Source of the DNA: Chloroflexota bacterium
GTDB lineage: Bacteria; Chloroflexota; UBA11872
Assembly: GCA_028873795.1 (NCBI GenBank)
Contig: JAPPNP010000032.1
Location: 1 to 52,063 of the forward strand
Reading direction: 5' to 3'
Length of the DNA stretch: 52,063 bases
In this document: piece after piece, positions 20,956 through 25,554 of the stretch
Layout of the letters: each line of letters starts with the position of its first letter
Position numbering within the stretch: the first letter of the stretch is position 1
Position numbers and translations under genes: made by a program
Notes under the pieces: generated by a model
Seen by the model: only the letters and a program-made list of their open reading frames with translations
What the model was told of the DNA's origin: nothing
Databases searched by the model: none

Positions 20956-21414
20956 ATGAGCACGCGAAGCCAGACCAATGGAAAAACGGACCTCGTCATC
21001 CACCGTGTATTGATCGGGTCCCATCAGGTTTCCGAGTACCTCAACTCGGCCTGCGAGCGAGCGGGCGTCTCGCTGCCGCTGGCGCGTGCGTTGCAGTTTC
21101 TGGCCGAGGCCGACGGCCCGGTCACGCCCACGGAGCTCTCACGTGAGCTGGGGCGCAGCCCGGCGGCCACCTCCGAGCTGGTCAAGCGGCTCGTCAACAG
21201 CGATCAGATCACGGCGGAGATCGACCCCAACGACCGCCGCTCGTTTCAGTTGGCGCTGACTGGTCGCGGCCGGTCCAAGTGGCAGGGCGTGCGCGCGGAG
21301 CTCGAGTCCGCGGAAGCGTTCCTCATCCGCCGCTACGGCAAGCGCCAGTTGACCGAGCTTGCCGGCGCGATGGACGAGCTGACCGCCGCGTTGAACGGCG
21401 CCGCCACCGGCTAG
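20956..21414 (+). CDS. MarR-family transcriptional regulator, 152 aa
   Basis: Winged-helix regulator: SLPLARALQFLAEADGPVTPTELSRELGRSPAATSELVKRL (about 38-79) is the HTH with the following wing EIDPNDRRSFQLALTGRGR (about 88-106), and a C-terminal dimerisation helix. It converges with pafA and shares a CTAG: its TAG (21412-21414) and the pafA TAG (21411-21413 on the other strand) overlap. Whether it controls the pupylation operon is unknown. The ATG at 20956 has a weak GAGAGACC box upstream. Confidence 0.88.
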   Translation: MSTRSQTNGKTDLVIHRVLIGSHQVSEYLNSACERAGVSLPLARALQFLAEADGPVTPTELSRELGRSPAATSELVKRLVNSDQITAEIDPNDRRSFQLALTGRGRSKWQGVRAELESAEAFLIRRYGKRQLTELAGAMDELTAALNGAATG

Positions 21415-22904
21415 GGGCGCAGATACCCGCCCAGCTTGTCGGCGAACTCCTCGGCGGCGGCGGTGTAGCTCTTGAAGGGATTGGGCAGCTCGCAGAGCTT
21501 TCCGCGCACCCCGATGCCGGTCCAGTCGATCAGGTAGGGGATGACGTCCCAGCCGCCGTAGGCGTCGAGCTCGTGCCAGTCCTCGATGTACTGGTAGACC
21601 AGGAATAGCTGGTCGTTCCAGTTCGTCAGCGCGCCGAGGTTGCGGTGGACGTCCTTCCAATCGATGAGCGAGTCGGCCTGCGCCTCCACCAGCGCCCGCA
21701 CGATGCGCCCGCGGGCGCGCGCCCGGGTGCCGGATGGCACGGCCAGTGGATTGACATCCCCCTGCGTGCGGCGCGGCGCCACGCCCCGCCGCTGCAGCTC
21801 CGCGAAGATGCTCACCGTGGGGTCGATGTGGTGGTAGGCCAAATCGACCTTCACGAGTTCGGGGTCTGCCCAGCCATCCGCTGAGTCCTCGGCGAAGCGG
21901 CGCAGCTGCTCGAGCTTGGTGACCCAATCGACCTTGCCCACCAAAGTCGTCGGATCGCGCTCGAGACCGTTCAGGCACTCGGCCCAGGCGTCTAGGGTCC
22001 AGTCGGTGTCGCCGTCGCGCCCGCGGAAGGCGCGGTCGGCGGCGTCCTGATAGACCCGCTGAACGTCCAGCGCCGGCATGCGTTGGCCGTCGGCCAACTC
22101 GACCGACCACGGGCCGGCCGGGTTGCTTGATATCTCCTTGAGGGTTTGCACCGGCGCCAGCAGCACCAGGTCCGGACTCCACCCGCCCTCCAACAGCTGG
22201 GCGACGAGCGCCGTCGAGCCGACTTTGAGCGCGGTGGCAAACTCACTGCGATTGGCGTCGCCCACGATCACGTGCAGCCGCCGCAGCCCGGCCTCCTCCG
22301 ACAGCGGCTCGTCGCGCAGATTGACGATGGGCCGGCCGCCAAAACGGACGCGCTGGCTCATGTCCACCGTCACGAACGCCGCCCGCTGCGAGATGTGGAA
22401 GGGCAAGCCGCCGTCGTCCCGGTCGGTGATGGTCATGCCGGCGCCGGCGTAGAGCTGGCGCGTGGTTAGGAACGGCATCAGTCCGGTGGCCATGTCCAAG
22501 CTCAAGGGACTGCGCCGCACGGCGTAGTTCTCGTGGTAGCCGAAAGTGTTGCCCAGGTAGTCGGTGTTGTTCTTGATGAAGAACAGCCGGCGGTTCAGCT
22601 CCTGGCTCTCCACGGCGTCGAGCAATATCGCGTCGGCCGCGTTCTCCTGCTCCACGATGTCGTCCAGCGTGCGGCACTCGGCCGTGGCGTATTCGATGTG
22701 GCCTGAGTCCAGGTAGAGCCGCGCCCCGTTGAACAGGAAGCCGCCGTTGCCCGGCGCCTCGTCCCATTCCCGGGGCGCCGGGTCGATGATGCCGAAGCGG
22801 CGCTCGGCGAAGATCACGTTCTTGACCATCGTCGCGGCCCGCGACGGCGGAAACTCGCCGGCGCTGGCGTACTCGATCTCCGTGCCGAACAGCGCGTCCT
22901 TCAT
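21411..22904 (-). CDS. pafA: PafA-like Pup ligase, 497 aa
   Basis: Glutamine-synthetase-fold ligase that joins the C-terminal Glu of Pup to substrate lysines. Visible are GTEIEYA (Glu9 and Glu11, Mg/ATP binding), FLFNGARLYLD with the catalytic-base-position Asp66, IEYATAEC, FIKNNTDYLGNTFGYHENY, SQRAAF, NLRDEPLSEEAGLRRLHVIVGDANRSEFATALKVGSTALV, the C-terminal domain beginning TRARARGRIVRALVE, and a FKSYTAAAEEFADKL tail. It is about 45 residues longer than actinobacterial PafA, chiefly in the C-terminal domain (about 420-470). Lies 12 bp after the pup-like gene. Confidence 0.87.
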   Translation of the reverse strand: MKDALFGTEIEYASAGEFPPSRAATMVKNVIFAERRFGIIDPAPREWDEAPGNGGFLFNGARLYLDSGHIEYATAECRTLDDIVEQENAADAILLDAVESQELNRRLFFIKNNTDYLGNTFGYHENYAVRRSPLSLDMATGLMPFLTTRQLYAGAGMTITDRDDGGLPFHISQRAAFVTVDMSQRVRFGGRPIVNLRDEPLSEEAGLRRLHVIVGDANRSEFATALKVGSTALVAQLLEGGWSPDLVLLAPVQTLKEISSNPAGPWSVELADGQRMPALDVQRVYQDAADRAFRGRDGDTDWTLDAWAECLNGLERDPTTLVGKVDWVTKLEQLRRFAEDSADGWADPELVKVDLAYHHIDPTVSIFAELQRRGVAPRRTQGDVNPLAVPSGTRARARGRIVRALVEAQADSLIDWKDVHRNLGALTNWNDQLFLVYQYIEDWHELDAYGGWDVIPYLIDWTGIGVRGKLCELPNPFKSYTAAAEEFADKLGGYLRP

Positions 22905-22909
22905 CGAGC

Positions 22910-22927
22910 GCGGGGACTACTCCCCGC
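22910..22927 (-). promoter_or_regulatory. Hairpin over the pup stop and pafA Shine-Dalgarno
   Basis: GCGGGGA-CTAC-TCCCCGC forms a perfect 7-bp stem with a 4-nt loop spanning the pup-like stop codon. On the transcript its GGGGAG arm is the likely ribosome-binding site of pafA. It could lower pafA translation relative to pup unless ribosomes finishing pup open it. The function is inferred from position only. Confidence 0.45.
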
Positions 22928-23090
22928 CGGGCTGCGGCGTCGGGTCCGGGATTTCACGAATGATGCGCCGGACGTGCTCGCCCAGGTCGTCGTCCTCCGC
23001 CGGCGTGGTCTCTTCGTCGGGAACCGTCTTGGCCGGATCGGGCGGCGCCTCGACCTCGTCGAGCGGCGCCGACCGCCACGAAATGCTCAT
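22917..23090 (-). CDS. pup: Pup-like protein ending in Gly-Gly-Glu, 57 aa
   Basis: A 57-codon gene exactly between dop and pafA, 3 bp after dop and 12 bp before pafA. The ATG at 23090 is preceded by AAAGGAGG at good spacing. The protein begins MSISWRSAPL, is acidic and disordered-looking (EETTPAEDDD), has a single Lys (residue 21), a short possible helix LGEHVRRIIREI (about 36-47) and ends PQPGGE. The C-terminal Gly-Gly-Glu is the conjugation-ready form; actinobacterial Pups often end Gly-Gly-Gln and need Dop deamidation. The middle of the molecule differs from the known conserved helix, so it is a divergent Pup. Confidence 0.85.
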   Translation of the reverse strand: MSISWRSAPLDEVEAPPDPAKTVPDEETTPAEDDDLGEHVRRIIREIPDPTPQPGGE

Positions 23091-23093
23091 CGC

Positions 23094-24578
23094 TCATCCT
23101 CCTTTGGCGTCAATCGCGGCTACTACATCATCAATGGTGGCGCATTTTTCAACCAGGGTGCTGAGCCGGTCGATTTCGGGTCCCGCGACCTCGGGCAGCC
23201 GCACCGTGACGTCAACGCCATTGCCGCGCAAGTGCACGCGGTCCCACTCCATGGCGGCGACCGCCGGTCCAAACTTGGCCAGCAGCTTGCCCCGCACGGC
23301 GGCCCGGGTTCCTGACGGCGGCGTGGTGCGGGCCGCCTCCACCTGCGCCGGCGTCACCAGCGTGCGCATGCGTCCGGCATCCGTTAGCCACTGATGCACG
23401 CTGAGCGTCGGGTCCAGCAGGTGATAGCCAAAGTCGATGCGCCGCGCTTCGTCGGGCCCTGGGCCGAGCTCCCGCAGCAGCGCCAGCTTGGCCGCCCAGT
23501 CGACTCGGTCGGACACCGACGTTGCGTCGGCTCGCAGGTCGGCCAGCACCTGTCGCCACTCATCCAGCACCCAGTCAGTCTCGGCGTCGCGTCCCCGAAA
23601 GCCCTCGCATGCGCTCAGCCACCACTGTTGAATGTCGAGCGGTGAAACGTCGAGACCGTCGTCGAGCGTGACCACGTCCCCCAGCGAGAGATCGTGCGAG
23701 ACCTGCCGGACCGCGGCCACGGGATCGCGCAGCCGGACGGGCGCGCGCCAGCCGGCCTCAACCGCGTCGAGCACCAGCGCCGTTGTGGCGGCTTTCATGC
23801 CCGTCGCCCACTCGCTGCGGTTGGCGTCGCCGGCGATCACGTGCAGCCGCCGGTAGCGGGTGCGATCGGCGTGCGGTTCATCGCGCGTGTTGAAGATGGG
23901 CCGCCGGGTCGTCGTGTTGATGCCCACCACCGTTTCGAAAAAGTCGGCGCGCTGGGACAGCTGCAACGCGCCGGCATTTCCGCCCTCGATGCCCACGCGA
24001 CCCGCGCCGGCGAAGACCTGCCGTGTCGCCAGGAAGGGAACCAGCGCGTTGACGAGATCGTCGAGGGGCACCTCGCGCAGTGTCAGGTAGTTCTCGTGGC
24101 AGCCGTAGCTACGCCCGTGATAGTCGGTGTTGTTCTTGACCAGGCGCACCCGGCCCCCGTCCAGGCGCGCGTTGTGCGCCTGTTCCGCCGCATGCATCAG
24201 CGCCTCGCCCGCGCGGTCCTGCGCCACCAGGTCCGTCACGGTGCGGCAGGCGTCGGTGCAGTACTCGGGGTGGTTGTGATCGTTATAGAGCCGAGCCCCA
24301 TTCAGCAGCACGGTGTCGGCCAGCAGCTCCTCGCGGGTCATGCGCGAGCTCTGGGCGGTGGATCCCAGGTGGTCGTTCGGATCGTGCTCCAGGGCATCCA
24401 CGCGACTCCCACGCAGGTCGCGCCGCGGGTCCTCGTCGGTGTAGTCCCAGCCGCGAAACGCAACCGGCAGAGGCGCCGCGTGAATCAGCATCGCCGACTC
24501 GAACGCGAAGTCGGGCGGTCCGGCAAACCCCTCGCAGTTGAGGCCGTATTCCGTCTCGATCCCGACCGGCCGGTTCAT
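23094..24578 (-). CDS. dop: Dop-like Pup amidase/depupylase, 494 aa
   Basis: Same fold as PafA but Dop type: GIETEYGLNC at the start, the Dop-specific loop WDYTDEDPRRDLRG (about 44-57), LLNGARLYNDHNHPEYCTDAC with Asp100 in the catalytic position, RLVKNNTDYHGRSYGCHENY, SQRADFFE, NTRDEPHADRTRYRRLHVIAGDANRSEWATGMK and a C-terminal AMEWDRVHL...VTVRLPEV. It removes Pup from proteins; deamidation would be unnecessary for a Gly-Gly-Glu Pup. Its last codons carry the AGGAGG for the pup-like gene. It starts 19 bp after the upstream gene. Confidence 0.9.
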   Translation of the reverse strand: MNRPVGIETEYGLNCEGFAGPPDFAFESAMLIHAAPLPVAFRGWDYTDEDPRRDLRGSRVDALEHDPNDHLGSTAQSSRMTREELLADTVLLNGARLYNDHNHPEYCTDACRTVTDLVAQDRAGEALMHAAEQAHNARLDGGRVRLVKNNTDYHGRSYGCHENYLTLREVPLDDLVNALVPFLATRQVFAGAGRVGIEGGNAGALQLSQRADFFETVVGINTTTRRPIFNTRDEPHADRTRYRRLHVIAGDANRSEWATGMKAATTALVLDAVEAGWRAPVRLRDPVAAVRQVSHDLSLGDVVTLDDGLDVSPLDIQQWWLSACEGFRGRDAETDWVLDEWRQVLADLRADATSVSDRVDWAAKLALLRELGPGPDEARRIDFGYHLLDPTLSVHQWLTDAGRMRTLVTPAQVEAARTTPPSGTRAAVRGKLLAKFGPAVAAMEWDRVHLRGNGVDVTVRLPEVAGPEIDRLSTLVEKCATIDDVVAAIDAKGG

Positions 24579-24597
24579 CCCGCGGCTCCGTTGCTCG

Positions 24598-25554
24598 CTA
24601 GTCCCCGATACAGGTTCCGACGCCCGCGGCCACGGCGCGTTCGAGCACCACCTGGCCGAGCGCGATGTCCCACAGCGCGATGCCCTGCGACTCGAACAGG
24701 GTGACCTCGTCCGGGCTGGTGCGACCGGGCGCGCGACCGGCGACGACTTGGCCGAACTCGACCGCCTCGCCCCACTGGAAGGCTCCGTCCTCGACGGCGC
24801 AGATCAGGTCGCCGCATTCGATCTTCGCGCCTTCCAGGTCGTCCACGAACACGCGGTCGGCGCGGGCAACCGCGGCGCTGTCCAACTCTCGATGCTGCGG
24901 GTGGTTGGTACCCATGGCGATGATGTGGGCGCCGCGTCCAATCCAGTCGGCCTCGATGACGGGATCGGCGGCGTTGGTGGCCGTGATGACGACCTGCGCG
25001 CCGCGCACCGCCGCCTCGGCCGTGGCTGCCGGCTCCAGGTCGGCCGGCAACGTGGGCGACGTCTCCTCGATGAACTGCTGAACGTTCGCCGGATCGCGCG
25101 AGAACACGCGCACCCGCGCCGACGGCTGCACGGCGCATACCGCCTCGAGCTGCGTGCGCGCCTGCCGGCCGGTGCCGATGATTCCGATGGCCTGGACCTC
25201 CGGCGGCGCCAGGTATTTCACCGAAACCCCGCTCGCGGCGCCGGTGCGGAGACCGCTCAGGCGCCCGGCTTCGATGACGGCGCTGAGAGATCCGTTGGCC
25301 GCGTCGAACAGCACCACCACGAAGCTGATGCCCCCGCCCGGAACGGTCGGATAGAGCTTGGCGCCCAGGACTCCCAGATCGGGGTCGGCCGCCCCCATGA
25401 GCTGCAGCGCGCCCCGCGCCGTGCGGGCGCGGCGGCGTCCCACGTTCGCCGACCTCCCGCGGCCCTGCCGCTCGAACGACGCCTCGATCACGCGCAGCGC
25501 CAGGTCCATGTCGGCCAGGCGATCAACGTCCGCTTCGGTCAAATACCTCGCCAT
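24598..25554 (-). CDS. Ornithine cyclodeaminase/mu-crystallin family, 318 aa
   Basis: NAD(P)-binding Rossmann enzyme: N-terminal LALRVIEASFERQGRG, substrate-loop GRLSGLRTGAASGVSVKYLA, dinucleotide motif IGIIGTGRQARTQLEAV and DLEGAKIECGDL, AVEFGQVVAGRAPGR near the C-terminus. The family includes ornithine cyclodeaminase, alanine dehydrogenase and ketimine reductase-like enzymes; this one cannot be assigned. It is the first gene of the operon leading into dop-pup-pafA (19-bp gap). Start ATG at 25554. Confidence 0.88.
   Translation of the reverse strand: MARYLTEADVDRLADMDLALRVIEASFERQGRGRSANVGRRRARTARGALQLMGAADPDLGVLGAKLYPTVPGGGISFVVVLFDAANGSLSAVIEAGRLSGLRTGAASGVSVKYLAPPEVQAIGIIGTGRQARTQLEAVCAVQPSARVRVFSRDPANVQQFIEETSPTLPADLEPAATAEAAVRGAQVVITATNAADPVIEADWIGRGAHIIAMGTNHPQHRELDSAAVARADRVFVDDLEGAKIECGDLICAVEDGAFQWGEAVEFGQVVAGRAPGRTSPDEVTLFESQGIALWDIALGQVVLERAVAAGVGTCIGD

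Follow-up and report, generated by a model that had tools for sequence, protein, structure and literature searches.

A predicted dop-pup-pafA pupylation cassette without proteasome and Mpa/ARC genes in the uncultured Chloroflexota class UBA2235

The window, that is, the whole stretch of DNA that was analyzed (52,063 nucleotides), comes from a genome of 3.18 Mb that is 96.6% complete. Between positions 21411 and 25554, the minus strand carries an OCD-like gene, dop, a pup-like gene and pafA, separated by intergenic gaps of 19, 3 and 12 bp, a layout that had been described in the first-pass annotation and is reproduced by the positions of the open reading frames (Table 1). The gene of a MarR-family regulator adjoins the cassette in genus g1 and is located near it in part of genus g2 as well; we regard this gene as a neighbor rather than an established member of the system. 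A promoter scan across the locus region detected no promoter.

Table 1 Genes of the dop-pup-pafA locus and its immediate neighbors (positions in the window).
Feature	Position	Strand	Description	Evidence
OCD/mu-crystallin-family gene	24598..25554	-	318 aa, upstream of dop	PF02423 (OCD_Mu_crystall) 5e-60
dop	23094..24578	-	494 aa, Pup deamidase/depupylase homolog	PF03136, TIGR03688, PDB alignment
pup-like gene	22917..23090	-	57 aa, C-terminus PDPTPQPGGE	position between dop and pafA, tail, dN/dS
pafA	21411..22904	-	497 aa, divergent Pup ligase homolog	PF03136, TIGR03686, 4b0t, 4bjr
MarR-family regulator	20956..21414	+	convergent with pafA, 4-bp overlap	PF12802 1e-10

Judging from its sequence, the dop product is a clear Dop. 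It matches the Pup_ligase family (PF03136) with 470 bits (1.2e-140) and scores higher with the Dop profile TIGR03688 than with the PafA profile TIGR03686 (397.7 vs 329 bits), the former score being below the curated TIGR03688 cut-off of 492.3 bits, as befits a divergent homolog. The alignment to the crystallized Dop of A. cellulolyticus (5lrt/4b0r) spans the full length of the protein, the Dop-loop included (E 4e-100). The signature residues were scored against the Dop/PafA-specific positions of PMC7947786 in 15 sequences from the class. The ATP motif GhExE (GIETE, residues 6-10) and the catalytic Asp100 of Dop are invariant in this set, and the Dop-type residues H95 and G214 are present in all 15 sequences and E210 in 14 of these. 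One class genome (G028) encodes a Dop (L063 6625-8109) that is about 30 residues shorter than those of its close relatives.

The pafA product belongs to the same family (PF03136, 352 bits, 5.1e-105), with a preference for TIGR03686 over TIGR03688 (281.2 vs 253 bits), and is likewise a divergent homolog, below the curated TIGR03686 cut-off of 551.3 bits. Its best match among PDB sequences is the C. glutamicum PafA (4b0t, E 1e-63), and the top Foldseek match of the predicted structure (mean pLDDT 68, pTM 0.70) is the PafA-Pup complex 4bjr (E 3e-19); by a second aligner, the predicted structure resembles Dop and PafA alike (Z ~19-21), far above other GS-fold enzymes. The catalytic Asp66 (the published Asp64 position) is invariant, the PafA-type residues A72 and S194 are found in 15/15 class sequences, F54 in 13/15 and L63 in 11/15, and the class PafA has no Dop-loop. 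The one-residue insertion V65 after the catalytic Asp is absent from all 15 class PafA sequences, and the alpha-loop (VSxRVRFGGRPI) is not the canonical one. Because the alpha-loop has been reported to be important for target interaction (PMC7947786), a different target set is plausible for the class PafA. The unique alpha-loop, together with the missing insertion, makes the predicted ligase activity on lysines uncertain.

The relationship between the two enzymes was addressed by phylogenetic analysis. In a first tree that comprised fewer actinobacterial sequences and included a long-branch orphan, the actinobacterial PafA fell with the actinobacterial Dop; this placement changed upon the addition of further sequences and the removal of the orphan. 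The later tree consists of four clades, the Dop and PafA of each phylum, each fully supported. The best tree joins the Chloroflexota and actinobacterial PafA weakly (support 58/19), and the alternative in which the Chloroflexota PafA groups with the Chloroflexota Dop, as expected if PafA arose by an independent duplication of Dop within Chloroflexota, is not rejected (p-AU 0.48); nevertheless, the distribution of the Dop-loop and the pattern of signature residues speak against such a duplication, and we disfavor it. An orphan third PF03136 protein of 479 aa is encoded in the groundwater genome G040 (contig C77, L111 9653-11092); it shares 42% identity with the window PafA across 341 aa, no pup-like open reading frame was seen nearby, and the same genome also encodes a Cdc48-like double-AAA protein (L099).

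The 57-aa open reading frame between dop and pafA has no match in Pfam or NCBIfam, and a comparison of six Pup-like proteins with Pfam at E-values up to 10 yielded only weak matches to FtsA_C, under the cut-off of that family. However, each of the 20 class loci that were inspected closely has a pup-like frame flanked by dop and pafA, and the 28 distinct tails collected over all loci without exception fit the pattern RI[IV]RE[IVM]P[DG]PTPQPGG[EQ]. The window protein is 84-95% identical to its counterparts at the corresponding site of four congeners, with 114 of the 180 differences at third codon positions and a dN/dS of 0.14; within the genus, dN/dS is 0.07-0.14 for dop, pup and pafA, indicating that all three genes are under purifying selection. 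The conservation in position and sequence, the purifying selection and the common tail imply that this frame is a real gene. It encodes a small protein next to Dop and PafA with a C-terminal GG[E/Q] that matches no curated Pup family. Compared with actinobacterial Pup (the sequences from L109 and L110), the first helix region is retained in outline, DLDEEIKRIIREI against LLDEIDxVLExN, whereas the second helix (AEEFVRSYVQK) is replaced by PDPTPQP ahead of GG[E/Q]; we read this protein as a putative Pup in which the first helix is kept and the second is swapped for a proline-rich tail. The N-terminal half is rich in proline and acidic residues and looks disordered. Sister genera alternate between the two endings: the switch between GGE and GGQ occurred at least three times (g1/g2; g3 vs g4 and g6; g10 and g12 vs g13). 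Such alternation implies that a deamidase is needed and fits a working Dop deamidase.

The named relatives of the window Dop, identified in a contig scan with class-specific peptides that is informative for the class but not for other phyla, all come from metagenome-assembled genomes of Chloroflexota, UBA2235 among them, and we accordingly assign the host genome provisionally to the class UBA2235, in agreement with the surmise of the first-pass annotation that the organism is not an actinobacterium. UBA2235/UBA11872 has been kept as a separate class-level lineage in a review of the phylum, where UBA11872 is reported from corals and sponges only (PMC10608941); many of the uncultured Chloroflexota that carry the cassette are sponge symbionts. 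A survey of Chloroflexota, covering 41 genomes of this class, all uncultured, and 359 others, detected the Dop/PafA pair in 39 of the 41 class genomes, which span five families, and in none of the 359 sampled genomes from the rest of the phylum. The Dop and PafA subtrees of the first tree both recover families f1-f4, a pattern that fits vertical descent from the ancestor of the class. No relatives were found in viral contigs, and a mobile or viral origin of the cassette was discarded; the single match from a phage collection looks actinobacterial. This match, MT835496.1 (L110 2570-7263), is a record labeled as a bacteriophage scaffold of human fecal origin and contains ARC-like/Dop sequence in one open frame followed by pup and pafA, without prcBA; it is probably an actinobacterial fragment. 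A search of open-access literature on pupylation and the proteasome in Chloroflexi yielded no paper that, judged by title and abstract, seemed to describe the UBA2235 system.

Only dop, pup and pafA are common to all families, the flanking genes vary by family, and no biosynthetic neighbor conserved across the class was found at the locus. The OCD-like gene, which the first-pass annotation had considered a partner in the operon, is adjacent to dop only in family f1, and a comparison of neighborhoods across the class retains dop-pup-pafA but not the four-gene arrangement. The OCD homolog is a single-copy gene in most class genomes; in f1, it shares a contig with dop in every genome that has both, except for G012, where dop sits at a contig end, and outside f1 it is located on contigs other than that of dop. 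Two class genomes, G016 and G021, lack the cassette. In G021, no match was found, whereas in G016, which belongs to the same family as the window, EamA, OCD and MarR are syntenic and OCD lies directly beside MarR (L121 2294-3965), a clean loss of the whole cassette. The joint absence of the three genes in G016 indicates that they are gained or lost as a unit. The linkage across the class and the G016 site rule out OCD as a part of the pupylation system; this gene is judged to be a lineage-specific neighbor by history, and the unit proper is the three genes dop-pup-pafA.

The absence of prcBA from the locus, as pointed out in the first-pass annotation, extends to the whole 96.6%-complete genome: zero PF00227 matches were found, which rules out a hidden proteasome. 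Across the class, no PF00227 protein is linked to dop, the weak matches in G008, G014 and G038 (29-41 bits) being located on other contigs. The protein from G008 (L042 1243-1983) is a lone PF00227 Ntn-hydrolase-type protein of 246 aa, away from the dop contig; G014 also encodes a lone protein of this type (L043), and both genomes belong to genus g2. The search for Mpa/ARC that had been proposed for the whole genome was extended to the class and found none over the curated TIGR03689 cut-off in any of the 41 genomes, the window genome included; a reader unrelated to Mpa/ARC could have escaped this search. Among 14 control genomes, one passed the cut-off, presumably C. glutamicum, the only control with a Pup ligase. 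The best TIGR03689 match in the window genome, below the cut-off, is the canonical FtsH (L031), and weak AAA matches of similar kind and size occur throughout the class. The next match in the window genome is a divergent FtsH-type AAA protein with a HEAGH zinc-protease motif (G000 C72, L032 727-3135), a candidate Pup reader.

These observations suggest that dop-pup-pafA is probably a pupylation cassette of UBA2235, complete and inherited vertically, that works without a proteasome and without Mpa/ARC, its tag acting as a reversible regulatory mark or being recognized by a AAA protease with housekeeping functions, for example FtsH. We infer the chemistry of PafA and Dop by homology; the formation of Pup conjugates and the fate of the tagged proteins are likewise predictions. 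In species with a Gln-ending Pup, Dop would first deamidate Pup; PafA would then phosphorylate the C-terminal Glu and join Pup to target lysines, and Dop would later strip Pup from the targets. With neither prcBA nor a dedicated unfoldase found, the tag is most likely regulatory or recognized by a housekeeping AAA protease rather than a feed for the proteasome, in line with the non-proteasomal role envisaged in the first-pass annotation for a pupylation locus in a genome devoid of prcBA. A reversible regulatory tag is the simplest reading. Its more specific form, a self-standing reversible Pup code with a redesigned tail and a new target-binding alpha-loop, in which control is exerted by tagging alone or through another reader, without a degradation machine of its own, is a serious but tentative proposal to which we give somewhat less than an even chance.

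The main rival of the regulatory tag is degradation through a substitute reader, whereby FtsH (the canonical one or the divergent second one), ClpCP or Lon would unfold and degrade the conjugates. The window genome encodes both the canonical FtsH and the second AAA protein with the HEAGH motif, comparable weak AAA matches are present class-wide, and the disordered-looking N-terminal half of Pup could initiate unfolding. However, the FtsH-type AAA matches persist in the two genomes without the cassette (G016 and G021), and thus are not dedicated readers; furthermore, these proteins show no linkage to the locus, and conservation in Pup is concentrated in the tail, where the enzymes would grip it. 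We therefore consider this scenario rather unlikely, although it deserves attention.

Two further explanations dispense with protein tagging as the main role of the cassette or with function altogether. Pup could serve as the peptide carrier of a small-molecule pathway, similar to LysW-type carriers, with an amine being attached and removed by the GS-fold enzymes, given that most of the enzyme superfamily acts in metabolism (PMC2588565) and that an amino-acid enzyme of the OCD/mu-crystallin family adjoins dop in the family of the window; but the class shares no biosynthetic neighbor beyond the three genes, OCD is unlinked outside f1 and persists after loss of the cassette, and Dop keeps the Dop-loop and the Dop-type residues, all of which renders this possibility improbable. 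Even less probable, to the point of being marginal, is the view that the cassette is the decaying relic of an ancestral Pup-proteasome system, with prcBA and ARC gone and little function left: the clean loss in G016 and the lack of a match in G021 indicate that the cassette is dispensable, but the low dN/dS of the three genes, the invariant tail and the retention in nearly all class genomes across five families are not what would be expected of decay.

Outside the actinobacteria, UBact is a Pup-like modifier of Gram-negative phyla that comes with Dop/PafA-type enzymes; its loci also contain proteasome genes, and its tail differs. UBact is named in PMC11354881. The Pup/PafA loci predicted in Plesiocystis and Rhodopirellula (Iyer 2008, PMC2588565) resemble the UBA2235 cassette in lying outside the actinobacteria and lacking a linked proteasome, but their ligases carry an insertion of four transmembrane segments and have a linked gene for a membrane protein (PMC2588565), whereas UBA2235 has separate Dop and PafA class-wide, with no such insertion noted. 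The mycobacterial system shares with UBA2235 the Dop/PafA homologs flanking Pup, the GG[E/Q] end and the gene order, except for prcBA; it differs in possessing the 20S proteasome and Mpa and in the Pup tail, which is LLDEIDxVLExNAEEFVRxYVQKGG[E/Q] instead of DLDEEIKRIIREIPDPTPQPGGE. The parallel drawn by the first-pass annotation, Corynebacterium, holds with respect to pupylation without a 20S proteasome, C. glutamicum having dop, pup and pafA without prcBA and pup directly ahead of pafA (PMC3511204), and a non-degradative role of its pupylation, iron release from ferritin, has been described (PMC12288473, PMC8223512). The parallel fails for the ATPase, because C. glutamicum retains ARC/Mpa, which performs the disassembly, whereas none over the curated cut-off was found in the 41 UBA2235 genomes; in addition, UBA2235 belongs to another phylum and its Pup and PafA are far diverged. 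Given that proteasome-less actinobacteria retain the Mpa/ARC ATPase (PMC3511204, PMC12288473), UBA2235 goes one step further.

Taken as a whole, the UBA2235 cassette appears to be a variant form of a known type of pupylation that lacks both the proteasome and Mpa/ARC. The naturally different alpha-loop of PafA and the proline-rich Pup tail may serve tools for Pup-based labeling. In the cited literature, experimentally studied pupylation ends at Mpa/ARC, whether the 20S proteasome is present or not; a class that has a writer, a tag and an eraser but neither a reader nor a protease would show that the tag works alone or through an unrecognized reader.
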